Shown here: positions 1 through 18,430 of the stretch, piece after piece
Layout: every line of letters starts with the position of its first letter
Position numbering within the stretch: the first letter of the stretch is position 1
Assembly: GCF_964355755.1 (NCBI RefSeq)
Contig: NC_092672.1
Location: 30,004,501-30,068,500 of the forward strand
DNA: 64,000 nucleotides
Reading direction: 5' to 3'
Source: Antedon mediterranea
Lineage: Eukaryota; Echinodermata; Crinoidea; Comatulida; Antedonidae
Notes under the pieces: generated by a model
What the model was told of the DNA's origin: nothing
The model's database searches: none
The model's input: only the letters and a program-made list of their open reading frames with translations
Translations under genes and position numbers: made by a program

Positions 1-1157
1 TCGGATGTATCAACTTGGGAAGATGCTGAAGAAGGCTGGGGATGGAATGTTGATGGTGGTAGTGCTGCCTTGCCTGCTGATGGTGAAGATGTAATGATCC
101 CTGAAGGTTCTGTCATAAATCACTTTGTGTTTATAGAATCCCTCACTGCAACACTTGAATTAATTTAACTGTGGTCTTTATGCTATATTATACAAATAAT
201 GAATAATTTATGAGTGCAACGGTACAAATAATCTCATTAGTTGATAATAAAACAAATTTTCATCTTTCACCGAATGAAATTATTTGTTTGCACGAAGATA
301 TAACATTACATTTAATGAGAAAGAAAGCAAGAACATCCATTGTCCATTCGGCAGACTATAAGTCTTTTATCAGAGTCTAGTAAGTAATATAAATTAAAAT
401 TTGTTTATTGATTATAAGGATATATGTTTTTTTATCCTAGAAATCTAGAGAAATTGCATTTTAATGGGAGAGCAGGAATTGGGAGAGAGTTGAGACATCT
501 GCAGCACTTTCTTGGAAGGCATATTAAATATTGATGACTTTTCATTTCAGATAAATATGTTTTTGTAGACACAGAAACGCCAGTTATGAATAAATTATAC
601 ATCTATGGAGCGCTAGAACTTCAAGCAGGTCAATCACATAGAATTGAAGCAAAATATATTTTTGTCACCGGTGCACTTATCATTGGAAGAGAAACGACGC
701 CATTTGAGGATAGCGTTGAAATCATCTTGCATGGCAACCATTTTACTCAAGACCTTCCTCTTCCAAGTGGGCCAAATATGGGATCAAAAGTCTTAGGTTT
801 GTTTCTACTGTTTCGTATAGAGTGCTAAGATGTGACTCTCGGCAGCTTAAGAGATCTAATTTAGATATGTGGTATGATAAGGTGTAGTAAAGTGCTACAT
901 TTTGTTTCTAGGTGTTTTTGGACGTTTGGATTTGCACGGTCAAGCACCAAATGTACCCTGGACAAAACTAGCATCAACAGCAGATGTTGGTAGTGACACT
1001 ATTACTCTGGTTCATGATGTCGATTGGGCTGTTGAGCAAGAGATAGTTATAACAGCTACTTCATACGAGGCATGGGAAACTGAGACGTTTAAAATAACTG
1101 AGGTCATCGATGCAAAAACATTAAGACTTAACGACACAGTGAGATTCAAACATATAG
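1..1157 (+). other. G8 domain exons of the fibrocystin-L-like gene
   Basis: The three exons 1-106, 551-796 and 912-1157 join in phase 1. The translation starts with a tryptophan-rich stretch (EEGWGWNVDGG), continues with a DVMIPE strand and an NKLYIYGALEL strand, and ends with VFGRLDLHG followed by PWTKL. This spacing is the G8 pattern found in PKHD1, PKHD1L1, CEMIP and TMEM2. Because the protein continues for about 1590 residues beyond it, it most likely corresponds to the second G8 of fibrocystin-L. The domain's first few residues may lie before the window. Confidence 0.85.
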
Positions 1158-4100
1158 GTTGGTTTTACTTTTTAGTTCTCTCTCTCTCCTTTTATTAGAT
1201 TATCGTATCAGTTCAGTAGTGCAAAGGGAGCTCATAGTATAAACTTATTTCCAGGCTATCCTGTGGTCTAGTGTTTAAGGCAGAGGCATCACAAAACTTA
1301 ATCATAAAATTGGCACAGTACATTCAAGAGTTAACCTGCGGTTGACTGCAATAAAGGTCTTAAGCCAGGCCTTAATCCCAAGAATGGTCGTACAATTAAA
1401 ATATGAAATCTGAGCCTAATCAGCAGCGTGGTCATAGTCTAAGCCTCCTCTAGACCGCATTCTGGTCCCCTGGGAGATGGAATTTGTTGCATGTGTCGTT
1501 TACACTTGTGAGGAGTGGAGTCTCGTAGACTGCAAAGCACAGATAATATTTCCCACATTTAAAATAGCCAAATAAGGGCTGCATGTCATATACAGTAGGG
1601 TTTCAACATCTTTTTCTGATAGCTTCGCATTCTATTTAAAGCTGAAAGTGCTTTCCACTGAGCTTACCACATCAAATATATAACATAATTGACTTTAATT
1701 TGTAGTTATTTATTTATAACGTAAAAATACAATTTGTACTTTATGTTGAATGTAGCTGAAACAACCACTATCGAAGATGGACTAACGTACACAGAAGCTG
1801 CTGAGGTTGGTCTCCTGTCGAGAAACATCAAGATTATTGGGGCTGACTATAATGATTTATATGAAGAATCCTTTGGAGCTAGAGTACTTATTGGCAAATT
1901 TCAACAGGATGGTAATGAATACAAAGGTAAGGAGTTGTCCATATATTCCATAATTAGTTTTATTTTATCATGAATTTAAATTCTGTTTAATGTAATTAAT
2001 ACAAGGTATTATGTTGCACAGTTATGTTGAATATGAAAAGAAGTGACAGAATGTTTAGGAAACTGCTTTTTAATTGCGCAGTGCATAGCCTAATCTAAGG
2101 TAGAATTAACTTCCCTTTTTAAAAGGTGAAAAAAAAAGATAAATTGACCTCAGAAAAGGTTTTATTTGTTCCTCCCTTCTACCCAACACCCTCCACCTAC
2201 ATCATGAATTCCGACCCAAAAATTTACTTAACCGAAAAATACTTCCCATTTCAACAAAGATATTTTGTTCTGTTTGTGTATAATGTACAGTTTACATTAC
2301 ACGTATTCCTTATCTTTGTTTTCTTTCCTAGGCTATGCCCGAATCTCGAATGTAGAGTTCTACCATACAGGGCAAGAAGGTTGGCCAGACAACTACGATC
2401 CGCGGTACTCTGTTGCTTTTCTTGATACTGGAGAGGTTACTGTAGCGAACCCTTCGTATGTACGTGAATGCGCCTTCCATCATGGATTCAGTCCTGCTAT
2501 TGGTGTGTTTGGTGCTTTTGGTGTCCATATTGAAGACAACGTCATTCACCACACAGTTGGAGCAGGTGAGGTTATATGCCCAGAAAAAACATTTACTCAG
2601 TCTCTGTAAAATTATCTTGATCTCTCACCATGTATGATTTGTAGTATAAATATATATCCTATTTTTTGTGGTCATGAAACACTTGCATCGATATTGTATG
2701 TAAACCTTCATCATCACGATCGCTGAACATCTTGTACATAGCACACTCAACACGATTTTCCCAATAAGAGCAATTATTGGCCAAAGTGTGCATAGACTTT
2801 TTCTCATCGTATCATTCTCTATAGTTTTTATCAATGTGCTATGTATGCAAATGAGGCAGTAACAACAAATATTAACTAAACCTGAATTTTTTCTTAGGTA
2901 TTTCTGCTTGGGGTTCAAGGCATGTCATTGCAGGAAATCTAGTATCTTTAACGGTGTTCCCCGGTACGTATCAAGAACGCTTCTTGAAAGAAGACAAAAC
3001 ATGGCCAGCTGGTATCGAAATACAAAACGCCTTTAGCACAGTCATCGCTAACAACACTGTTGCGGGATCAGAAAGACTCCTGTACCGAGTGGGTGGAGAA
3101 GACTGTTTTGAAGATGCGTTATGGGTAAACAACGAGGGCCACTCTGCATTAGCAGGAGTTATGATATTACCAACTGATTCTCAACATCGCTGCTCAAGAA
3201 TTAACGGCTTCTTCCTCTGGAAGAATTACTACTATGGGATTTATTTAGAGACTACTTCTTCTCTTGTGGTGTCGGATGTAACTCTGGCTGATAACAAGAT
3301 AGGAATATTACCATACATTTATAGACCACCTGCACTCAGTCATGAACCTTCATCAAAGACTTTTACAATGGAGAGCTCTACTATTATTGGCACAAGCCCG
3401 TCATTCAGCTGTTCAGAGTTGCAGGTAAAACAAACTATTTTGCGCAGTATGCCTTGTTAAATGTTTGAGGCTGAATCCAGGGAAGAATTTTAATAGGATT
3501 AAAGTCGATATAATGGTTAATAGCTCATACAGCCCACTGAAACTTATGAAAGTGTGGTTAAAACTAGTTTGAACTTGTTTATTTGTAATTTTGTGTTTAT
3601 GGTAGCATTATGTTTTAACTTAACAGCATTTATGATTTAATTTTCAGAATGCACCGGAGAATGAAGACCAGTGTAATCCTGTACACTCGCCTCCAAATCC
3701 CCCTGGTGGGGGCAAGATTGGATTTATGATGACAAATTTTATGTCAGGGTCAAACAATGCTCCAATTAAAGCGTTCCATGGTATAAAAAACTACCCTGCC
3801 ATTGCTGGTCTAACCCAACTACAAGGTATGTTGTATTATCAGTGGTTGTGGGAGAGTGTTATGCTTTCCATGGTGTCAACAATGTTTAGTACAAATGGCT
3901 CCGGCAACCTTTGTCAGCAGTGGTTATTCAGACTTTTATAGTATGGTTAATTTATTAGTACTTTTACATGTTCAAATCACTTGGTAAATATCATATATAA
4001 AACACAGTAAACTAAACTTTAAGGTTAATTGATTTGTTTTTCTTTTATTTCAACCTAGATGTTAAATTTGCATATTTCCAAGAAGGCTGCTCCAGTTCTC

Positions 4101-7100
4101 GTGATTATGCCATGGTACCTAACCCTGGCAACCAAGATGGTATTCATCCAACAACGGTGGAGGAAACAAGTTTTGCTAATGTTGATGAAACTAATAAACT
4201 CTTCATCTTTAACCCTAGTGTTGGGTGAGTTGGTATTTGATAACTTGGTAGGCCATTCTCAAGTAACTGTTCTAATTTTCGGTAGAACAACCTAGCGCTC
4301 AAAAGACCAAAGAAAGTTATTAGAAATGTCATAAGATCAAGTTAGTTCAAGGGTCATGGAATAAATTTTAACGATATGGTCAATGTATGAGTACAACTGA
4401 AGTACAAGCCTATTATATGTATCCTTGCCATTTGATTGGTTGAGTACGCTGTCTATTAGTGGTGTACACATTCAAAGCACCATATTTTTTATGAGCCTTT
4501 AAGTTTGTTTCAAGATGGAAGCAGAGAAGTAATTGTTGAATAGACCAATCTAATTTTTCAGGTCATGACAACATAATAATAATAATAAAAATAATATATA
4601 CGAATTTGTAAAGCGCCATTTCCAGCAACAATTAGGGATCAAAGGTGCTGTGGACTTAGATGTTACATGTTTTCAACAACATTCTTCTCCCCTAAGGGTC
4701 ACATCGTGTCATCGGCAGCCAACTACGGCGCCATCACGACAGTGTGTATGTATGAACTAGTACACCGGGGTAACCCCCTACTCATCTCGAAAGATGTACT
4801 AGGTTCTTTGAAGTGCACACGAGCCAGATGTACACTGGACCTACGGTTTATAGTTCTTATCCGAGAAGACTTGTTCTACCACCGCGAGTGAGCCTCGAAC
4901 CCTTGCCGATGTTATGGCTATGGGTTACGGTTCCACTGTCTTAATCGCTCGGCCACACTCACTCACATTCTAGTCTCCATTATTTTGTGTAATGACCCAT
5001 GAAATAGAGTTTACCATCGGAGTACAAAAATAATTTTAATGTGTTTATTATAACAACTTAAACGGTTATTAATTTGAAATGAGGAAAATACCTGGATTAT
5101 AAATACGTACTAAAAATATTCAGGTATAAAACCATGCATAAACAAATTTATATTTCCATTTACAGTAAAGCAAACCCAGCTGATTGTGTTGATATGTCAT
5201 GTGATGCGATGCGGAAAATAATGATTACAGACAAAGATGGATCATTTGTTGGTAATGGACCGGGAACAATCATAGCTAATTCTGGTTACGAATGGGATGG
5301 CGATCCAAGGTATGGTCTTGGAGATTACAGAATTCCAAAGATGGCGCTAACAAACACGGATGGTTCGAGAATTTCGGCCAGAGAAAAGTTTCCAAAGAAA
5401 GGTAACATAGATAAAATTGTATAAAAATTCTATCTAATATTTATTATATTTTTTTTGTACTGTATTTTAATTTTGGGAAACCGTAGAGGTCCTTCTCCAT
5501 GGTGTATATTTCTTTTTGAACTGTGATTGTGTTGAAGTTGACCCTACTGTAGTTATTAATAATATAGTTTGTTAAATACTGTACCCTCTTGCATAAAAAG
5601 GGCGTTTTCGATTTGCGACTACCTAAATCAGGGTCAATCAATGTGTCGGTCGGACAAAGAAATAATTTTAATTTTTTTTTGTTTATTAAAATATTTCCAC
5701 TGGATAACAATATCAACGTTGTCCCACAAAGGGGAGACATTGTTGTTTTTCAAAAGGTCCAGCATAAAACATTACAGCATACATATAATACATAGTTTCT
5801 TAAAAATAGTTTTAAAAAAATGTTAACTGTGTCGATTCAATGCGTAATTATTTTTAATAATTAAACAGTCTAAAATAATACTAAAATGTGAGAACCATAT
5901 ATTAAAAATACTATATAACGATTAGAAATCAAAGTTAGCAAAAATGTTCAATAAAATAGAAAACACCACATAAAAATATACATTGAACAGACTTAAAATT
6001 AAATAAAAGTATTTCCCTAGAAATTAAATTTTAAATTTCAAAATGTATGTTATTATTTAATAATCCGATATCGAGGTTGTCAGAGAGGAAACATGTCCTT
6101 CGTAAGCATGCAAACAATGGATAAACATGACTTACTTTAGTTAAATCGTGGTTATCGCAAATCAAAAGCTCCTCAATTATTAAAATGTAATATTTTAATA
6201 TTTTGAATGTAAATATTACATTGTACCATAGTAAATGTTGAGCTTTTTTCCTTTGTCAATATTTATTTTTTTTATTTTTTTTTTTTTTATTTATTTTTCA
6301 AGTGTATGATAATCTGGACATGGATAGTCATTTGTTAACAACCTTTTAACAAATTTTTGTCATTCATTTTCCTGGGGCGTAAACATTTACATTTTGTAAA
6401 GTAAAATGTTTTTGTATGTGTGTATGGGATTAACTTTGGTTGGCGCTTGCTTTGTAGGTATTGTAGGAGTAGGAACGGACAAGTGTGAATGGAATGCAGA
6501 TTGGAATGCGTATAAATGCCACCAGTTGGATCATGCTATGATGATCATAGAGAGCATGGACCCAGATACTGAGGTACGTCGTCTGTCACCAATCGCCATG
6601 TGTTCAGAAGACACTGTAGATCTCATCAATGGACCACAGGATCACGGATGGTGCCACGGCTACACATGTCAGGAACGTATCAGTACGTTCATGTCCATCG
6701 TGGCAACAGGGAAGACTTACGAGATGTATATGAGCAGTACGAACCCTCAACATCTTCGCTTGCATCTTCTGAACTCTAATGATGATCAAAAGGTTGTTGT
6801 CGGTATCTGGTATGCCAATCCTCAACGTTTAGATGTATATCATCAAGGCCGCTATGTGATGCCAAACAATGGTGGAACTGACAGGTCTGGTTCCTTTATT
6901 TGGGTGGATAAGGATCCAAACCTTCCCGATGACCAATTTCAGCCCAAGCCAACATCAAATATTTACGGGGGAAACTATTTTGACCGTGAGCGCCAAACCC
7001 TCTGGGTTCTAGTACGTGGTGGAGATTCTGTTGACATTATCACGACTCCTGTAGTCATGGTTGCTATTGGAGTTCCGGCAGTCTCTGTTGATGATTTCTT

Positions 7101-10100
7101 TGAGGAGAATCTTGTACAGAATCTGGCAAATCTTCTGGGAATTTCTAGTGACAGGATACGGGTTGTGGATGTCATCAGAGAGGGAAGTACTCGTCGTAGA
7201 AGGCGTTCAGATGAGGTAACGGTAGAAATTGAAATCGGTGACCAACCTGCGACTAACATAGACGTAGGCAATTCTACTTCCAACAGCAATCTTACAGACA
7301 CATCATATGGTAAGTTAAACACCTGAGGGCACACCTCGGGAGCCAACACAATGTCTTCTTTAATAAGGGTGTCTCCCAAAACCATATAAGGTGGACACTT
7401 TCCTGTTGAATGAGAAATCAAATGAATCAAAAGTCAATGTGTTTTCACACAAGGCCAACCCCTATACAGGGGACACCCTATTAAGAGGACACTTTGTTAG
7501 ATCCCAGAAGCTCTTCTACTCTAGTACTTGTTTTATATTCAGCTCCTTTAAATTAAAACATGTTTACATGACTTTATTTATTTAAAACATCTATTCATTT
7601 TTTTCTAAAACAGGAAACTATACAGCGGGCAATTCGTCTCTTGGTTATGATGACCTGCTTGATATCCAGTCACAAATTGCTGATGCTGCCCAAACTGGAG
7701 AGCTATCTGAAAGTCTTGATGTGGAAGTTCAATCATTAGCTATGTCTGATCCTGTGGAACCAGCTACCGATCCCACAGGAGGTGAAAGAGCAACTAATGA
7801 AACGGGTGGACCAGACAGCGGTGACATGCCGTGAGTAGTCCTTGCTAGTTACATAGTCTTCAACTCTGTCTACACTATCAAACTAGTGTGATGTGTCCAA
7901 ATATGGTAGTAATGATGTCATCATGCTCATATATAAGCACATTCTTTTGTCACATTGCTAGTGTAGACAGAGTTTACATTTACGATGTAATAGTCTACAG
8001 TAAAGTATCTGGTTTTTTATACACAGTTATGGTGAAGTTGATAGTGAGGAAGAGGAACCAGTTGTAGAAGTTGTTTACCAGTTTCCTAGCTACTTAATGG
8101 TTTCACAACAACCGTCTGACGCCAGTAGAGCATGGCCATTTGTCGTTGAAGTATCTGTTCTTGATGCACAGGTAAAGAAAGATAGAAAATCTTAATCTAA
8201 TGTGGTTATAAATAGGTTGAGGTCACAAAAGGTCAGTGGTCACAAAAGGTCATGGTTAAAGAGAAACTCTAAATGTCGTAAAATAAATTAAAAGGAGAAA
8301 GTCTTACAGTTTTTAACTGTTTCATCCTATTTTAATATTTATCCAGTATGTCTATGAGTAGGTTAAGGTCACAAAATGTCAATGGTTGAGATCACAAACT
8401 TTAAAAATGGTTATTTCACGACAGTCATTATGCTTTACCGATACTGAAAAATAAGTAGGGTTATTATTAATGTTGCAAATGGTTATATTTTATAATACAC
8501 AATAGAAATTGTGTACCTAGAGCTATACCTTTTAAATTAAAGTTCAACAAACTTATATTTTCTTTTAATAGGGTGAGCTTGTACTGAATCTTGGACATTC
8601 ATCAAATCCTTGGAAGATGGAAGTAAGTCTGAGATCGGGAACTGGACCAGAAGGATCTATGCTTACTGGCAACACAACCATTGGCATTGTCAATGGCGTT
8701 GCCAGCTTTACAGAAGCAATGCTAGACACAACAGGATCAGGATACATCTTGGACTTTGCCATCGTCTATCCAAACACTTCGACTCTAGCACCTGTTAGTA
8801 GCCAGTCATTCTCGGTTGCAGAACGAGAATTTGAAGTCGTCGTTGGTTCCCAACCTAATGTCAGTGTAACAGTTGGAGAGAGGTTTACTGTAGGATTTAG
8901 CCTGGCTGATGTTTTAAGTGGATTGCAGCTTGCAGATCTTGATTCTTATGTAAGTACTGTTATGCACACCGTACTCAATCAAATCAAAAGTAGGCTTTAG
9001 GCCTAGCCTGGGCCTGCCTATTTAGCATCTGCAGCCTACTATTAGAGGTTTCATGTACCCTCTCAATGCTATCGTGTAGCTCATGTTGCAGGTGGTACCA
9101 AACCGGGAAAGCTTTAAACACTCAAAATGTTTAAGTCCCCAAGCCATTGAAAAACATATTTTAACCTTGATACAAGATAGTTTATCGAAGTAATTTTATA
9201 TTTGTTAATTTTGAGCTTTTAATTATTGGAACTTTAATGAAATTGTGAAGTAATTCGAAGTATAACATTAATTTGTGTGTTAATTTTGCTTTTAGGGCTA
9301 CAATTGGACCGCAAGTATTGAGTTGTATGAACCTGATAATTACTTTGGGTCTCTGACAGGCAACAAAACTACTGTAATCGATTTAGCACTTGCAAATGGC
9401 ATGTTTACAGACCTCTCCATTGACGGAACTGGCTTTCAGTACATTATGGAGATCACACTGACAACCACAACTTCCAGCTCCTACATGTTAACAAAGCAAC
9501 TGACTGCGTTTGATGTTGTCCCTGCCTCGATAGTTGTCCACACGGGAGAACCAATGGAAGTTACTTTAAGTTTCTTAGCGAATTACGCCTCATATGCATC
9601 CGGCAAGGAAGAAAATGTGAAAATCAACTTTCTTAACAAATTTTCAAATATGTACACAAATGTCACATTTACCGTTGAGAGTATATATGAAGGTTAGATT
9701 ATATCAATTTCTATAATTTCTAATAATTCGCAATATTTTTTAATAATCATAAAACCAAAGACAATTAGTAAAATTAAAGTAATTTTTTACAATAGACCTT
9801 TTAAAACACACCTGACTGTATTTTTTCCAATTTGATTGGTTAATTAAGCATTACATGTCATTCGGAATTTAGCCCTACCTAACAACAGAAAAGTGATATT
9901 TAATGGTAATAATTAACGTGCTCCGGACTAATGCATGTTCAACTTTTTGTTAAAAAAAGAAGTACAATGTCTTTAATTTTTAATGTAGTGATCATGTTGC
10001 ATTTCCCATCCCATGTTTTTTCTCAACCTTGAAAAACCCTTTTTAGGTCATATTCATTTACATAATTATATTTAATTCTTATAGGTTCAATTAGAATTGA

Positions 10101-13100
10101 CTTCACCATGGTTGGGGATGTGGATAACACTGTGGCTACTATGTACAATGATCTACAAGCTGGACGTATTACCTTGTTCATTGATGGCACCATTATTGAA
10201 GCTGACAAGTACTACATGAAAGTGAATGGAGAGTCGTATGGCCCATCCGATGTAAGTAGCCTACCCCCTTTTCATTCCTATTTTGGATTAAATTTCAATA
10301 TTTTTTCTGGTGCGATTGTAGTTTTTTTTTCAATAATTGAAAAAAGAAAAGTACATCACTTGCGGACACTACAACATCTAATTGTATTAATGTAATTTTA
10401 TTTGTATTTAAACATTATACAAATAAAGTCAGGCTTTTAAAAAAGGGAAATTTTCTGCCTATGCAACAAATACAAAACAGTCAGTATTTGTTTTTATAAC
10501 AAACTTACTCCGCTTTTATCTTTAATTAATGTTGAAAATCAGATGGGAAGCTAGATCATTTAAAAAATCAATGCTCAGATTTTGGTAGAAGACTAGCCTT
10601 ATATGTCCACAATGATACAGAACCATTCTAATACAGTCATCTCTCCCAATACCTGACACCTATGGGCTAGCCGAATATGTCTGGTTTTCTTGATAGTCTG
10701 GTATTTGGAATGAGTTTTTAATGGTAAAAACACATTTTTGGACCTTTTGAGCCTCAAGAAAAGTCTTGTTTTGGGAGAGTTTACTGTATAACCATTAAAA
10801 TAGAATATTAGAATCAAAATTATTATTATTTCCACAAATTAGCGAAGAAAAATCATCATAAGCTAGGCTTATTCTCCTCCAAACCCAAACTCAAAAAAGT
10901 TTTAAATTTATTCAAATATTTTAAATGTTTTTGTTGTTTGTCTATGTGTACATATGGTGTCCGAAATGATCGAGAATGGACTGTACTGTTGTTCCAAAAT
11001 TGAAACAAAAAATGTTCTTTTTTATATTTTACATGGTTGTCCATCGGAACTGACCATTTTAATTTTTAGTTACCCTACATACATTTTTGGTTGCCCCTGG
11101 ACTGAGGGCAACTGATTATATCGAGACGGGACTGTTGTGTTCCACAATTGATGCAAAACATTGTTGTAATATTTTTTTATATTTTATGTGGTTGTCCATT
11201 GGGACTAGCAATTAACATTTTAGATTTAGTCCTACATACATTTTTGGATTCCCTGATGTTGAGGGCAACTATTTTTGCAAGCCCATCTAGTGTTTTCAAT
11301 TAGTTGTATGTACCAATCTCATGATGCAAACTTTTAAATGTATTGTAAGCCAATACGAGGACTGCCTTTAATAACTCTTATATAAATCTACTTGAAAAAC
11401 TTTTTTTTATAAGGATGAAGAGGATTCTGGGATACCTGTGTGGGCTATAGTTCTACTGGTATTAATTTTACTGATTTTGCTCATCGTCATGGTTTTCACC
11501 ATTCACAAATTCTTCAGCAACAAACAAAGTAAGTTCAATTTAAGTTTAACTGATAAAAATATGATATCTTCATACATCTATACCGAAAACGCATAAAACA
11601 CTTGCCTGTATTAGGGAAGAGTGAGTTACAAATAGATGCCTGTATTCACCAAAATATACCACCGTTAACTTAGAAAAAACACCCCCCAAATGAAAAATGG
11701 GATAGTTACAAAATATATCAAATACGTATATAGTGTTAGTACTCGTATTTTATGAGCAAGATATATACTTCTTATATACAGTAAATCAAAATATACATCT
11801 TTGAATTGATGGGACAGTCCAAGTCTAAGATGGTTTTTTTTTAAACAAATTGATTAAAAATTTGTGTTTATTTCAGACAACAAACTGGCAGCAGTTGAAA
11901 CGATGCATTTGACAGAGAAGGAAGAAGCACCAAGAATATCTAGTCGTGCTGATTTACATGGTAGAAACACACCAGTGTTCACTATAGAAACTCCAGAAGG
12001 AGAGTAAGTTAATTTTTCATTATGTATGGAGACCCATAAATGCCAAAAGAGAATACCCAACTGGATTTCCACTTGTTTAAATGGATTATAGAATGTTGCA
12101 CATCCATGGCACCTTTATGTTCTCATATATTTTCAATGTAATTATACACCTTTTTTTTAAACACACTATAATAATTGGCCTTTATAAATTAAATAACTTA
12201 ATAATAATTTACTTGCCTGTAGATAATACAGGTAGATTGTAGACAATATAAGGTTTAATTTTAAAATGTTTTACTTATTAATATGATTAACATATTATTA
12301 TAATCGCTGCTTCATTTTTGTCACATTTCAGCTTTGATGAAACCAAACCGTTGAAGGATGACACATCTCGTCCATCGTCCAGTCGAAGTAAGTCACCTGG
12401 CTTCAACCATCCAAGCAGGACACCAGAGATTGTCTCCACAGCCTTGCCACCTGGATTTGCACAGGGTTCGGAAGAACATTGTAAGTAAAAAGAAAGTGTA
12501 TCCAAGATAAGATAAGATAAGATAAGATAACTTTTATTGATCCTCAAAAAGGAAATTCATTGCTCGTCATAAAACAAAGAAAACACTATAAAAACAAAAA
12601 TAGCATAAAACCATTCATATAAAAACATCTAAAAAATTACAATATAAAATTATCTTCTTGACTTCCTGTTGTACTGGATGATACCAAGCCCTTTTCAAGT
12701 AGAGATCAGCAGAGAAACTATAGGCCTAACTAGCCTCTCATGAGGAAAATGAACCCTCTGTACAAATCCCAGCTATAGGCTAAAATGAATCTTAGCCCAG
12801 GATGTTGTGTTATTTTTAACAGATATAACCGAAACAGAAGTATAGGAACCACTTCAAAAAAACCTTGTAAACTTACGATAAATAGAATACAATAATAGAA
12901 ATTTTTTTTAAAGTGCTATTATTTATTATGATAATTATTATAATAAAGCTGACCTGAAATATCGTTACTTTTGAAGTATTGACTGCAAGATGACATTAAA
13001 AAAAAAAATTCTTGTTTTGCCAACAGTGAAAGAAGACCGCGCTACCATGTTCATTATGCAGCTAATGCCAAACAGAAGTTTCTCAAAGTTGGGTGAAATG

Positions 13101-14461
13101 GACGTAAATCTCGTTGGACCGCTCAGTAACATGCGTGCTGAGCTTAAACCGAAACTTGCCAGCCTCCAGTTAGACCAGCCGTTCGTGTTACTCACAGAAA
13201 CTTTGAAAGACATCGACGGAGCAAGTGAAAAGAGACAGATCGTACACGAGGTGTATGCCTCCGATAGCATCCTCCTTCGTTTCCTAGATGATAAAGGTAA
13301 TACACTTGCACCCCCGAATACAAAGCCAGATTTTGTATATTTTAAACGGGATGGTGATGATAAACTTGTGAAAAAAGCTGTTTCCTTTAATAGTCCACCT
13401 CCAAAATGAAAAACTAAAAAATATTAGTAAGAATTATAATTCTCAAATTTTAATAAACTGGAGTTTGGATATACCATATTACTTTATGAAACACATTTTT
13501 CTATATTTCTTTTTTCATTTTTTTTTATTGATTACATATTTAAATGTATGTAGTTAAAGACGTTTTTTTTTCTCAATACATGAGAACAATTAAACATTGA
13601 ATGTGCCATTTTGTAATTTTAATAGTTAGTTATTCGCTTTTGCTGAAAAAAAATAGGATTTCATTGCTTTCACAAAAAAGAACAAAATTTTACAAAAATC
13701 ATGTTGTGGCCAGGTTTCCACAGCAAAAAATATAAATTAAATTAAAAAATAACCTATAAAGTTCATGTGGAAACGGGGTTTAACCGATTAAGCTCGAGAA
13801 AATTAACCGATAATTATCTCTTTCAAATCAGATAAAGGAGATAATTTTTAACCTTTGACCTAAAGAATAACTTATTGCGTTGTGATTGGGCACTTGGTTG
13901 TTCGGTAATAACTGATCGTGCACACTTTATTTTGTATTGATTATCTGATTGGTTAAAAAATTAACTGATAGTAACTGTTGTTATGGCTGCGGAAACATGG
14001 CATATTACTAATCTACAATATTGCTTATTGTTTCCATCATAGTCAATTATTGACTATTTTTTCATCTGTGTGTTTTCAAATGGAAAGCTCGCTATTGCAT
14101 GTTATATCTAACAACTTTTTCACACACATATCTAGATCTGCTATCAATTCGCTAAAAAATTGTACAAGTTTTGATGTAATTAAATATAATATATAACAAT
14201 AACAATTGTATTTGTATATACTAACGCTTTCCATGTCTTTTTTTATTGGCAGATATTGATAAGCTTTGCGTTTGTGGTCTGGTCGGTCAGTTCGAATGTT
14301 CGCTTTGTCATGCACAAGTCTATTGCAGTCCTCAATGCCAGTCGGGTGATTGGGCGAAACATATTCAAACGTGCAACAGTGGGAAACACCAATCACCAGA
14401 TTCCAGTTTGCTTTATAATGAGAAAGAACAAAAGGATTCCCCTCCGATTAGTTATCCATAA
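1..14461 (+). CDS. PKHD1L1-like: Fibrocystin-L (PKHD1L1)-like membrane protein, C-terminal 1711 residues, 5' partial
   Basis: Exons read from splice sites: 1-106, 551-796, 912-1157, 1756-1926, 2332-2565, 2898-3424, 3648-3825, 4059-4224, 5166-5401, 6458-7309, 7614-7830, 8027-8171, 8572-8949, 9296-9692, 10085-10251, 11414-11528, 11877-12003, 12332-12480, 13027-13296, 14253-14461. Every junction is AG/GT with matching phase, and the total is 5136 nt with no stop until the end. Visible order: G8 domain (about residues 1-120), beta-helix-type region (about 257-510), a long ectodomain including the family-typical DHGWC and YTCQ motifs near residues 760-770, one TM helix (about 1431-1452), then a ~260-residue cytoplasmic tail ending in a MYND finger. 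The family comprises large single-pass surface receptors; vertebrate PKHD1L1 is a hair-cell stereocilia coat protein and PKHD1 is ciliary. The 5' part of the gene lies outside the window. The family call is from recognition of motifs, not a search. It differs from CEMIP/TMEM2 proteins, which share G8, in having this extended ectodomain and a C-terminal TM. Confidence 0.88.
1258..1560. other. Possible SINE-like segment in intron
   Basis: The intron between exons 912-1157 and 1756-1926 contains GTCTAGTGTTTAAGGC at about 1267-1282, which resembles a Pol III A box, but no clear B box follows. The composition is less AT-rich than the surrounding intron. I cannot class it further. Confidence 0.25.
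2332..3424 (+). other. Parallel beta-helix (PbH1-like) exons
   Basis: Exons 2332-2565 and 2898-3424 encode short repeats of the type ISNVEFYHTG, VRECAFHHGF, VHIEDNVIHHTVGAG, RHVIAGNLV and TVIANNTV, each about 22-25 residues apart with asparagine or histidine at the turns. This is the right-handed beta-helix pattern that follows G8 in fibrocystin-L and TMEM2. Whether it binds or cleaves polysaccharide cannot be told from the sequence. Confidence 0.7.
4560..4975 (-). mobile_element. tRNA-derived SINE in a fibrocystin-L-like intron
   Basis: Read on the minus strand, the element starts with a tRNA-like head: A box GTGGCCGAGCGATTAAG (rc of 4940-4956) and B box GGGTTCGAGG (rc of 4893-4902), about 40 bases apart as in tRNA-Leu/Ser. 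It ends with GGCGCTTTACAAATTCGTATAT and a (TTATT/ATT)n tail (rc of 4569-4610), a tail type shared by many SINEs and L2-like LINEs. It lies in the intron between exons 4059-4224 and 5166-5401. Confidence 0.75.
6458..7309 (+). other. Large conserved ectodomain exon with basic cleavage-like site
   Basis: This 852-nt exon is the longest of the gene and gives the clearest family match: motifs NAYKCHQLDHAMMIIESMD, LINGPQDHGWCHGYTCQ and LVRGGDSVDI. Near its end, bases 7192-7206 encode five consecutive arginines followed by serine, in the context EGSTRRRRRSDE. That satisfies the R-X-R/K-R consensus of furin-type proprotein convertases. Fibrocystin is reported to be cleaved by a convertase, so this may be a processing site that leaves a C-terminal stalk plus TM; that is an inference. 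Confidence 0.8.
7860..7975. mobile_element. Palindromic MITE family A, copy 1
   Basis: Inverted ends CTCTGTCTACACTATCAAAC ... GTGTAGACAGAG enclose a short interior with ATATGGTAGTAATGATGTCAT. It lies in the intron between exons 7614-7830 and 8027-8171. Other copies are at 28161, 37377, 44230, 46744, 56049 and 61587. Confidence 0.75.
10940..11290. repeat. Degenerate ~160-bp tandem duplication in intron
   Basis: Two similar blocks, about 10960-11105 and 11122-11280, share ATATTTTA..TGGTTGTCCAT.GGRACT, CCTACATACATTTTTGG and GGGCAACT in the same order. They lie in the 1.16-kb intron before the TM exon and have no coding potential. Confidence 0.55.
11414..11528 (+). other. Transmembrane-segment exon of the fibrocystin-L-like gene
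   Basis: The exon starts in phase 0 with an acidic lead (DEEDSG) and then encodes about 22 hydrophobic residues, VWAIVLLVLILLILLIVMV, followed by HKFF and lysine. Acidic outside and basic inside fits a type I membrane protein with the preceding 1.4 kb of coding sequence extracellular. It is the only convincing TM in the traced protein. Confidence 0.88.
12503..12585 (-). mobile_element. 3' end of a non-LTR retroelement with (TTATC)n tail
   Basis: The plus strand shows about six GATAA units followed by CTTTTATTGATCCTCAAAAAGGAAATTCA. Read on the minus strand this is the GATCAATAAAAG(TTATC)n terminus common at the 3' ends of L2/CR1-type LINEs and their SINEs. It begins about 20 bases after the donor of exon 12332-12480. 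No RT sequence is attached. Confidence 0.55.
13027..13409 (+). CDS. Cytoplasmic-tail exon with internal donor and alternative composite 3' end
   Basis: The acceptor at 13025-13026 joins exon 12332-12480 in phase 1. The exon encodes a compact-looking segment (KLGEMDVNLVGPLSN, LDQPFVLLTETL, VHEVYASDSILLRFL) that I do not recognise; its alternating strands and helix are reminiscent of a ubiquitin-like fold, which is only a guess. A consensus donor (AAAG/GTAATA) lies at 13297. If it is not used, the frame stays open for 37 more residues and stops at 13407-13409, with AATAAA at 13452-13457. This predicts a 1679-residue isoform lacking the zinc finger. Confidence 0.7.
13709..14001. mobile_element. 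MITE with GCCAKGTTTCCRCAGC terminal inverted repeats
   Basis: The left end GCCAGGTTTCCACAGC (13709) and the inverse of the right end GCTGCGGAAACATGGC (to 14001) match at 14 of 16 bases. The ~290-bp interior contains short inverted segments (AACCGATTAA, AACTGAT) and no ORF of interest. This non-autonomous DNA element lies between the two alternative 3' ends of the fibrocystin-L-like gene. Confidence 0.7.
14253..14461 (+). CDS. Terminal exon encoding a MYND-type zinc finger
   Basis: The acceptor TTGGCAG at 14246-14252 joins donor 13297 in phase 1, giving the junction LDDK-D-IDKL. The exon encodes a finger with ligands spaced C-x-C-x8-C-x2-C-x5-C-x3-C-x6-H-x3-C and the typical YCSPQCQSGDWAKH core. 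MYND fingers bind proline-rich partner peptides and appear in SMYD, DEAF1 and ankyrin/MYND proteins. After the finger comes a ~28-residue polar tail. The first pair is C-x-C rather than the more usual C-x2-C, a spacing seen in some MYND proteins. The nearest AATAAA downstream is at about 14984. It could instead belong to a separate gene, but it has no convincing own start and the phase match favours inclusion. Confidence 0.7.
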
Positions 14462-16290
14462 GTTGAAAAAGGTGGTGGTAGATTGATCACAATATAAGGT
14501 GACCTTTTAAAGTAATTCTTATTTCTATTCTAACTAAATTTTTAGATAATATTTACGAATATGCATATAAGGCGATTTTTCACCCAAAAAAAACTCCAAA
14601 ACTAATTTTCAATTTATCTTAAACTACCATACTAGTGAATCATTTATCAACTAGTTTTTATTCCAAATTCTTTTCATTTTATGGAAAATATTCCACAAAC
14701 ATACATGGAAGCTATACTGTAGTAGACTGGTTGCAATGTGATTTGATTATACTCATTTTTAATGATTTTGATATAGTGGTGTATTTTACTGAAATATTGT
14801 AAATTAAGTATTTTATGTGACATGTGATAGCGGATTACATTGTTTTGTTTTATATTATATTGTAAAAAAAAGCAGAGAAGAAATTTAATATGTATTTTAG
14901 GTTTGTTTTTTGTGACAAAGTCCTCCAATAGAAAGTAACTCGCCAAATATAAACGGAGTCTCATTTGAGGTTTAGTGAGAGTGGAATAAAAACAGTTGTG
15001 AATTTCCAATCAGAATTAAACTTTATAGTCATTGAGATAAACAAATTTCAGGTTAATAAAAAAAAACTAACTTAAACGAAAAAAATTTGATATAATGAAG
15101 AAAATTGAATATATTTTTTAAATGATTTATAAAGTAAAAAAATTTTAGAACATAGATATAAAATATAATATTTGTAAAAATAATGTAATCTATATCACTT
15201 TGAAGATTTTATTATGCTTTTTTTTTGACATTGTCATTGAAGAATTTTATTTTTCGTGTTTTTGGTGTATATTGGTATAAATTAATATAAAATGTATATT
15301 AGTATAATATTATATTGTAGTAGGATAGTGTGTTCTGTAAATTTATATACCTTTTCTTTAGTCTTTCGTCTTATAGGCGCAAACATTTCTTTGCTAGTTT
15401 TTTGTTTGTTTTGGAAATCATTCTAGTAGAAATAATTATTACGGGTATAGTATAATAATTTAGTTCAAGAAGTATGTGTAAATCCGCATAAAACATATCC
15501 AAATGTAATTTTTACACGCACAACCATGTAATAATAAACTTCTTTACTCGATATCAAAGCCATTAATGGTTAAAATTATACTCAAAATTACAGTATACCT
15601 AAGGTAATGGAATGAGAGATGTACATTTATATTAACGTTGTGCTTCGTCTTGTCGATAATCCAATCACTGTGCTTCTCTGGTATATTATTCTACCATCAT
15701 TAGTTTAGTGATATAAAGGAGAGATACTTTTTTTTTTCAGACGAATAGTATTATTGTGGAATTCTCATCTTTAAATAAATAGTATCTTGTTGCTCTTTTA
15801 AGCAGCCAGTCCACTTGCCTCAAATCGAACAAGTCACCAATCCATATCAATACCAACACAGGGAGTTTATTTTGAGAATGTTCTCAACACAGTATTATCA
15901 TGCGCTATAAAACTTCCCATAATTCAACGGGTCCTGACTACTGTAGTATGTTAGTTTTACCATGGTTTTACTTACAATTGTATTTACACGGACTAATAGG
16001 CCTAGTTAAACCAGTTCTATGCACGCTTCTTAAGCTGAATTACATCCATTAATTCCTCGTGTGATCGTTCTTCCTTCCTTCGGCGCGCCTACATAACATA
16101 CAGAGTTGAACCTTTTTCTATTCTTCTAGACAAACAAACAAATGATACAGTTTAAGTTCTTAATACTCAATTCTGCTATTACCTCCTTGTCGTTAACTCC
16201 GATATCTCCAATTACCTCTAATATACCTCCGATGTGTTTTAGAAGTACATTCGTTTTAGAATTTAACATAAGCTAAGCCCAGTGAGTTCC
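14462..16290. other. 3' flank of the fibrocystin-L-like gene, no gene seen
   Basis: AT-rich, stop-dense sequence. It contains AATAAA candidates (for example near 14984) that could serve the MYND-ending transcript. No splice-linked coding segment or RNA gene was recognised. Confidence 0.5.
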
Positions 16291-16415: not shown

Positions 16416-16879
16416 TTTATTAAGATAAATTTGGTGTTTTGTATTTACATGATTATATATTCTTTCTTTAAAACAATTATACTACAGGGTTTCTGTATCG
16501 TATATATATTATTGATGAACATTGTGTAATACTAGTTTGGTACTTTTGTGTGTAAAAATGGTATAAACCTAACAAGATTGATCTAGTTGTTTGTTTTGAA
16601 GGAATTTTAGCAATATTATCATAGGGAACAATGATACGGTATTTTGTTTTTAAATTCAATTTTTATGAGAAATATTGCGTGTCATATATTATCTGCGAAA
16701 ATCATATAATGTGGATGGTCTGCGCTCAAAAGTTTGAAAATGGAAACAATTTCGACCCTTTTATATTTACTTAGGGTAAGGGTTACTTGGGTTGTCCTGA
16801 ATTCATCAAATGTTTTTCGTGTTTTTTCTCTGATGTTTTTATTTGACTGTCTTTATGTATGATGGATTCGAAATAAAAC

Positions 16880-18430
16880 CAAACAAATATATATGATCAT
16901 ATATAGCAATATTATCGCATAATAAATGAATTTTAAAAACTTGAATATTTTGGGCATTTTTCGAAAAAATCCCTGAACTATTATTTTAGGATTTTTTTCT
17001 AAAAATGACAAAATTTCGACCTTTTAATTTTTCGACAAAACTGGTTAACATGGCTCTATAAGATAATACAACGCAATATATGCGCATATATAGCCATATT
17101 ATCGCATAATAATTGAATTTTAAAATATCGATATTTTGGAAATTTTTCGAGATTTTTTTCCAAAGATGGCAACATTTCGACCCTTCTATTTTTCGACAAA
17201 ACTGGTTAATATGGTTATAGACAAAATATGCGCATATATAGGCATATTATCTCATATTAATTGAATTGAAAAAATCGATATTTTGGGTGTTGTTCGAAAA
17301 AAAACCTGTGCTTTAGTACAGGGATTTTTTCACCAAAAAAGGCAAAATTTCTACTATTTTATTTTTCGACAAAACAGGTTAATATGGCTCTACTATAATA
17401 GTACAGTGATTTTTTCAAAAAATAGAAAAATGTCTACCTTTTTATTTTTTCGACAAGCTGGTTAATATGACTCTAGAAGATGATATAAATGGATGCGCAT
17501 ATATAGGCATATTATCGCATAATAATTTAATTTAAAATATCGATATTTTGGGCATTTTTCGAAAAAAAATCACTATTTATTATAGGGATTTTTTTCCAAA
17601 ATAAAAAAATGTCTACCTTTTTTTTTTTTTTTTTTTTTTTTTTTGAGAAAAAAAATCCTGTAGGCGCGCCTATAGGGACTTTTTTTTTTTAATTGAAAAA
17701 TGTCTACCTTTTTATTTTTTTTTTACAAAACTGGTTAATATGGCTCTATAAAATTATATAAAGCAATAATATGCGCATATATAGCCATATTATCTCATAA
17801 TAATTGAATTTTAAAAACTTGATATTTTTACCCTGTGTACAGGATATCATAATTGACATGCACATAATCGTATAATGGGTTTTGCTCGTGTTACCTCAAC
17901 ATATTTTAAATTGTCTATATGTTGTGATTTTTCGAACAATTTTCAACAAATATTTATATTTTGACATAACTGGTTAGGATATCATAATTCGAAAAACAAT
18001 CCCTGTACTATAGCAGAGACATTTTTGAAAAATAGGCAACTTTTGATCCTTTTACATTTTTAGTTACTGTGCATGTTACCTCAACATATTTTAAATTGTC
18101 TATATTTTTCCAATTTTCATGAAAAAATCCTTGTAGAAATTGTCCAAAAATAACCATATTTTGACGTAAAGGTAGGATGTCATAATTGACATTCACATAA
18201 TCGTATAATGTTTTCTGCGCATGTTACCTCAACATATTTTGCCTAGGCCTATATTTTGCGAACTACGTATAGTACAGAGAAAATTGCTAAAAAATAGCCA
18301 AATTTTGACCCTTTAGTATTTTGTCATAACTGGGTAGGATATCATAATTGACATGTGCTGTGTTCTTCGCATGTTACCTAAACGTATTTTAAAATGTCAA
18401 TACTTTGGCATTTTTCGAGAAAAAAAAATT
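16880..18430. repeat. Degenerate tandem array, related to the 38.4-kb array
   Basis: Repeated modules occur in the order TTTTTCGAAAAAAATCCCTG, CCCTTTTATTTTTCGACAAAACTGG, TTAATATGGCTCTA and ATGCGCATATATAGCCATAT, then ATCGCATAATAATTGAATTT. Starts are near 17040, 17200, 17460 and 17730, so spacing is irregular (about 160-270 bp). A 25-base T run sits at about 17619-17644. A later subarray (17840-18400) repeats GGATATCATAATTGACATG and GTTACCTCAACATATTTTAAATTGTC. No coding potential. Confidence 0.75.

Follow-up and report, generated by a model that had tools for sequence, protein, structure and literature searches.

A predicted PKHD1L1-type receptor of the crinoid Antedon mediterranea whose long cytoplasmic tail ends in a MYND finger

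Within the fibrocystin family, PKHD1L1 (fibrocystin-L) has been described as the ancestral member (PMC13424714). The vertebrate protein carries IPT/TIG repeats, two G8 domains, a beta-helix stretch and a single C-terminal transmembrane (TM) segment. Its cytoplasmic tail is given as 8 residues (PMC6707252, PMC11043200) or 9 residues (PMC13424714), in agreement with the short tail that the sequence-only reading of this locus had ascribed to it. PKHD1, or fibrocystin-polyductin (FPC), has a long cytoplasmic tail after the TM segment and a convertase-like site near the membrane. The FPC tail of 192 residues is called unique among vertebrate proteins in a review whose main text does not contain the word MYND, and the same review reports Notch-like cutting of vertebrate FPC with release of the tail (PMC13424714). 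In echinoderms, sea urchin Fibrocystin L was reported among the apical-tuft cilia proteins by LC-MS/MS (PMC3812683), and fibrocystin among the humoral proteins of the coelomic fluid of the sea cucumber Holothuria (PMC12119288). Among the papers listed from the open-licence literature, judged by titles, we found no published account of a MYND finger in the PKHD1L1/fibrocystin family. A MYND-tailed receptor may already stand among the predicted proteins recorded for other echinoderms.

The DNA analyzed here, a whole stretch of 64,000 nucleotides (hereafter the window), corresponds to C3:30004501-30068500 in a genome searched over 354 Mb in 18 contigs. Judged from sequence matches, an echinoderm source is likely: one tektin exon matched chain 8snb_8D, of sea urchin, at 290 bits, compared with 156 bits for the best Tektin-4, and a second exon, of tektin-3 type, had its best match in the vertebrate Tektin-3 of 7rro (207 bits), the 8snb tektins reaching 121 bits at most. 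COX1 gave no match. The exon list was derived from an automatic locus model of 57 exons with two internal stops. This model overran some splice sites and swallowed repeat-derived stretches upstream; the boundaries were corrected by hand, and only exons in the window were used. The 20 exons in the window, whose frame the sequence-only reading had called open, were translated without internal stop into 1,749 residues ending at a TAA, with the acceptors at 2332, 5166 and 8027 picked by eye; the frame alone does not fix these three boundaries, and 16 of the 126 combinations tried, including the chosen one, keep it open. The six terminal exons have GT/AG splice sites and matching phases. The exon at 13027-13296 is preceded by the acceptor gccaacag and followed by the donor gtaata, and the exon at 14253-14461 is preceded by the acceptor attggcag and ends in the TAA. 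The in-phase joining of these two exons, proposed earlier, is borne out by the consensus sites, by a phase-1 junction at 13296/14253 (G/AT, giving Asp) and by the open spliced frame. The features of the window, by position, are as follows.

1..82 (+): first exon in the window, extracellular, beginning at -139 outside it (open chain, paralogue match)
550..801 (+): second G8 domain of the gene, in an exon of about 551-796 (Pfam G8, 62 bits)
2898..3424 (+): beta-helix-like exon (Beta_helix below cut-off, 20.6 against 25.9 bits; matches in paralogues A, B and C)
6458..7309 (+): extracellular exon with a CEMIP_X-like stretch (CEMIP_X below cut-off; about 67-70% identity to A, B and C)
from about 7087 (+): SEA-like stretch in the exon 6458..7309 (reading by eye)
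7192..7209 (+): furin-like convertase motif RRRRR/S (equivalent site in A, B and C)
10085..10251 (+): final exon of the extracellular part, followed by the TM exon (splice sites; matches in A, B and C)
11414..11528 (+): TM exon, with the hydrophobic run at 11438-11503 (conserved in all four genes)
11877..12003 (+): first cytoplasmic linker exon (in all four genes, phases conserved)
12332..12480 (+): second cytoplasmic linker exon (in all four genes, phases conserved)
12381..12431 (+): near-invariant linear motif SRSKSPGFN-x-P-x-RTPE (aligned in all four genes)
12441..12461 (+): invariant motif ALPPGFA (all four genes)
13027..13296 (+): tail-domain exon, 89 full codons (47-55% identity to the three paralogues)
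13297..13409 (+): possible alternative end by read-through into the intron, stop at 13407-13409 (hypothetical)
14253..14461 (+): final coding exon, carrying the MYND finger and the TAA stop at 14459-14461 (splice acceptor, Pfam, paralogues)
14267..14374 (+): MYND finger (ligand-type residues, alignments to solved structures)
C14267, C14273, C14297, C14306, C14324, C14336, H14360, C14372 (+): MYND ligand-type residues, by first codon base
14985..14990 (+): first AATAAA 3' of the stop, candidate poly(A) signal

Degenerate direct repeats were also seen by eye in the 3' flank (about 16700-18000), where stretches around catatta-t-cgcataataatt recur.

The ectodomain resembles that of vertebrate PKHD1L1. 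Five TIG stretches were found by Pfam in one exon (3e-75), and a second exon also matched (7.8e-14). Two G8 domains were detected, at C3:30000704 (80 bits, upstream of the window) and C3:30005050 (62 bits), with G8 at 1.6e-20 in the ectodomain. The first is followed by a CEMIP_beta-hel match (1.3e-56), and the second by beta-helix matches below the cut-off only. A single C-terminal TM segment is indicated by the hydrophobic run in the TM exon. Of the signal peptide and PA14 domain that also belong to the family, PA14 gave no match among the 10 exons of the gene that were scanned, the 5' end of the gene lying outside the resolved model. In contrast to the very short tail of vertebrate PKHD1L1, the cytoplasmic tail of the window gene has about 260 residues and ends in the MYND finger, and we therefore use the name PKHD1L1-type, not PKHD1L1. 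As read from the DNA, the encoded protein is almost certainly a PKHD1L1-type receptor in which a long cytoplasmic tail leads to a MYND finger at the C terminus.

Four genes of this type lie on the same chromosome. Besides the window gene these are A (about 28.69-28.72 Mb), B (about 28.75-28.77 Mb) and C (about 28.81-28.83 Mb), all more than 1 Mb from the window gene. A genome-wide G8 search returned at least 12 matches, of which 8 strong ones correspond to two per gene and 4 weaker ones adjoin each first G8. The four are the G8 genes of this genome as far as the G8 search reaches, the counts being lower bounds. When the genome was searched with the tail and finger, three further tail-domain places and two further finger places were found, all on this chromosome. 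In the stretches compared, B is colinear with the window gene from the IPT region, and A and C from the beta-helix region, by way of the second G8 and the juxtamembrane exons to the tail; the TM exon, masked by filtering in this comparison, was recovered in separate ones. All four genes share the TM exon, both linker exons and the tail-domain exon, in identical phases (1, 2, 1). Three of the four, namely the window gene, A and B, also have the MYND exon, joined in each by an identical phase-1 junction to a tail exon of exactly 270 bases with a phase-1 end; the intervening intron measures 956 bases in the window gene, 341 in A and 316 in B. The pairing of the two exons is more than chance, since it recurs, with order, strand and phase unchanged, in two further genes of PKHD1L1 type.

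In gene C the donor is gone, and the frame ends in KWRR-stop directly after the tail domain. Within 12 kb 3' of its tail no credible MYND match was present among the matches listed, and the genome-wide searches list none there. In a permissive tblastn over 40 kb around gene C, the best listed matches had E 0.64 with the window query and E 1.0 with the A query, and each lay upstream of the tail exon. About 1 kb 3' of the gene C stop, reading frames resembling those of a non-LTR retrotransposon were noticed by eye. The finger would thus seem dispensable in some copies, as copy C lacks it. Gene C differs less from A and B (dS 0.31-0.44) than the window gene does, for which dS is saturated; on four sequences with no outgroup, the simplest account would therefore be that the finger predates the four-gene split and was lost in C.

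The coding sequence of the tail bears marks of constraint. Compared with the other genes, the window gene shows saturation of synonymous differences (pS 0.82 to 1.02), while the non-synonymous values (pN) are 0.29-0.34 for the tail domain against A, B and C, 0.19-0.21 for the finger against A and B, where the MYND exon is 67-68% identical, and 0.18-0.19 for one extracellular exon against the others. Identity between the window gene and A at the three codon positions is 0.67/0.81/0.40 in the finger and 0.70/0.69/0.29 in the 13027 exon. Between A and B, omega is 0.105 for the tail domain and 0.086 for the extracellular exon; for the finger alone it is 0.43 on 43 codons with few changes, which does not indicate strong constraint. 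For A or B against C, omega is 0.28-0.29 in the tail domain and 0.14 in the extracellular exon. In blastn of the window gene against A, the intron between the tail and MYND exons went unmatched, and the MYND exon matched at 70% over 89 bases; the intron comparison says little, because the 13027 exon was likewise unmatched at that threshold. Whether the tail of C evolved faster once the finger was lost was also considered. Changes in C only against changes shared by A and B only number 7:2 over 85 columns of the tail domain, 7:3 over 254 columns of one extracellular exon and 15:8 over 182 columns of the tail after the TM segment, and are not significant.

The finger itself was assigned with the Pfam zf-MYND profile (PF01753, cut-off 22.7 bits), the comparison that the sequence-only reading had put forward as a check. 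The spliced tail scored 26.3 bits (E 7.5e-6) and the window exon alone 31.0 bits (E 2.7e-7); in the three copies that have the exon the scores are 31.0, 29.9 and 30.5 bits, all above the cut-off. The Pfam match begins at profile position 4 or 5. Eight Cys/His residues of ligand type (C4-C2HC), which would bind zinc, are present in all three copies; since the first pair is C-x1-C instead of C-x2-C, zinc site 1 may be altered. In a profile search against solved structures, the nearest MYND fingers were those of DEAF1 (E 6.8e-6 and 2.4e-5), CBFA2T1/ETO (2.1e-4) and ZMYND10 (0.0024), with SMYD proteins at E 0.15 and above among 35 sequences up to E 10. DEAF1 and CBFA2T1/ETO are transcription regulators, whereas here the finger terminates a membrane receptor, and its first Cys pair differs from theirs. 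In DEAF1, the corepressor-binding residues have been given as Met512, Glu514, Thr516, Gln529 and Trp533 (PMC3555993). By our own placement on the alignment, the window finger has Gln, Glu, Ser, Gln and Trp at these places: the Glu, Gln and Trp contacts are the same as in DEAF1, Ser at the Thr516 place is as in the ETO match, and Gln stands at the Met512 place. The earlier proposal of a receptor with an intracellular finger of peptide-binding type stands in its architecture and MYND class, strengthened by three of the four paralogues. The C-x1-C spacing of the first Cys pair had not been noted in it. An AlphaFold prediction of the MYND exon (pLDDT 49) was too poor for use.

The next-best relative of the finger in this genome is a DEAF1-like gene (54% over 37 residues, E 0.005), recognized from its MYND sequence together with a SAND domain encoded on the same strand at a distance of about 9 kb. 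By our reading its MYND exon begins in phase 0, whereas the exon here begins in phase 1. These phases differ, as do the exon starts, and a fresh copy of the MYND exon from that gene is therefore not supported. In a prokaryote genome collection, 45 pattern matches were obtained, none of which was confirmed. Further zf-MYND matches form clusters at C3:26057762-26081053, C9:19482951-19487550 and C11:6635154-6647624. Eight matches in these clusters lie in frames of 548-577 codons, three of them with one stop inside the match, and the clusters resemble tandem arrays expanded from a MYND gene with few introns.

The finger may instead be a degenerate or purely structural MYND that does not bind peptides and, for example, packs on the tail domain. 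The C-x1-C spacing in all three copies would suit this explanation, as would the different residue at the Met512 position and the lack of a finger in copy C. However, the eight ligand-type residues and the Glu, Gln and Trp contacts are invariant in the three copies although A and B have each diverged from the window gene to saturation at silent sites. We regard a purely structural finger as unlikely; a finger that would bind peptides is the reading we retain.

Between the TM segment and the finger, the best-conserved linker stretches are SRSKSPGFN-x-P-x-RTPE, which carries SP and TP sites, and ALPPGFA. Because both are conserved in gene C, which has no finger, they may have a role of their own. 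The tail domain encoded by the 13027 exon gave no Pfam match in any of the four members and, up to E 10, none among PDB sequences, and in a single-protein search it matched only these four genes. With low confidence, AlphaFold placed its secondary structure in the order b-b-a-b-b-b (pLDDT 61, pTM 0.49, from a shallow alignment of 4 sequences). This predicted order would suit a beta-grasp (ubiquitin-like; b-b-a-b-b) domain, while neither Foldseek (best E 0.28, 708 matches up to E 10) nor VIA (best Z 4.1) supports any particular fold; the structural matches listed include transthyretin and other unrelated folds.

The convertase element of the sequence-only reading was recovered in every copy: a polybasic furin-like motif lies at the same place in all four genes (RRRRR/S in the window gene, RRKR/S in A, RRRR/S in B and RRKR/S in C). 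Together with the reports from echinoderm cilia and coelomic fluid, this motif would fit a ciliary receptor with a sheddable ectodomain. In a further-reaching explanation, a convertase, a sheddase and an intramembrane protease would act as on Notch, and the freed MYND tail would act on transcription via corepressors of the NCoR/SMRT type. Such release would be in line with the motif in the four genes, with the nearness of the finger to corepressor-binding MYNDs, with the reported processing of the FPC tail in vertebrates (PMC13424714) and with fibrocystin in sea cucumber coelomic fluid, which fits shedding (PMC12119288). On the other hand, no basic nuclear-localization cluster was seen by eye in the tail. 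We consider release of this kind quite unlikely. Its furthest extension, in which echinoderm fibrocystin-L would be a Notch-like sensor that sheds its ectodomain, captures corepressors with its MYND tail and turns a ciliary event into transcription, with gene C as a decoy, appears more doubtful still. A tethered finger at the membrane, rather than a freed tail, is what we favor.

Read-through of the tail exon over 13297-13452 would give a short alternative C terminus, with AATAAA at 13452, and possibly a finger-less isoform. It could be argued that this is the usual product, and that the MYND exon is a separate gene or is rarely spliced in. The window stop at 13407 with the AATAAA behind it speaks for this, and the frames of A and B also stop soon, with AATAAA or ATTAAA within 300 bases. 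However, the window read-through peptide is unlike those of A and B. A separate MYND gene was rejected, because the window MYND frame has no ATG and the junction, identical also in phase, is common to three genes; A and B each have one upstream ATG, which lies inside the intron. An end by read-through as the usual product, or a rarely spliced MYND exon, is thus judged highly improbable, and the spliced, MYND-tailed form is retained as the predicted product. That the tail arrangement is an artefact of assembly or duplication is hardly credible: all the sequence evidence comes from one genome, but relative to A and B the window gene is saturated at silent sites, lies more than 1 Mb away and has introns of different length.

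The explanation that we consider probable is a PKHD1L1-type receptor whose MYND finger would serve as a membrane-tethered adaptor docking proline-rich peptides. By sequence, a giant ectodomain (IPT/TIG, two G8 domains, beta-helix, juxtamembrane convertase-like site) is followed by one TM segment and the tail of about 260 residues, in which the SP/TP motif, a small domain and the terminal finger, nearest to the DEAF1/ETO class, are successive modules. At the receptor, probably on ciliary or epithelial surfaces, the finger would dock PPxLI-like proline-rich peptides belonging to a cytoplasmic scaffold or co-regulator, and the SP/TP motif and cleavage of the ectodomain would tune this docking. 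The MYND-tailed form represents a variant among receptors of a family already known and does not amount to a system of a new kind.

A long tail with a MYND finger would offer a plausible signaling route for a receptor thought to be almost tail-less. A constrained tail with a recognizable module of peptide-binding type is also a testable handle: which peptide is bound, which partner carries it, and whether the receptor acts cut or uncut. Paralogue C, which has the tail domain and no finger, would be a natural control. For the family, the finding raises the question of whether the vertebrate form lost a signaling tail or this lineage gained one.
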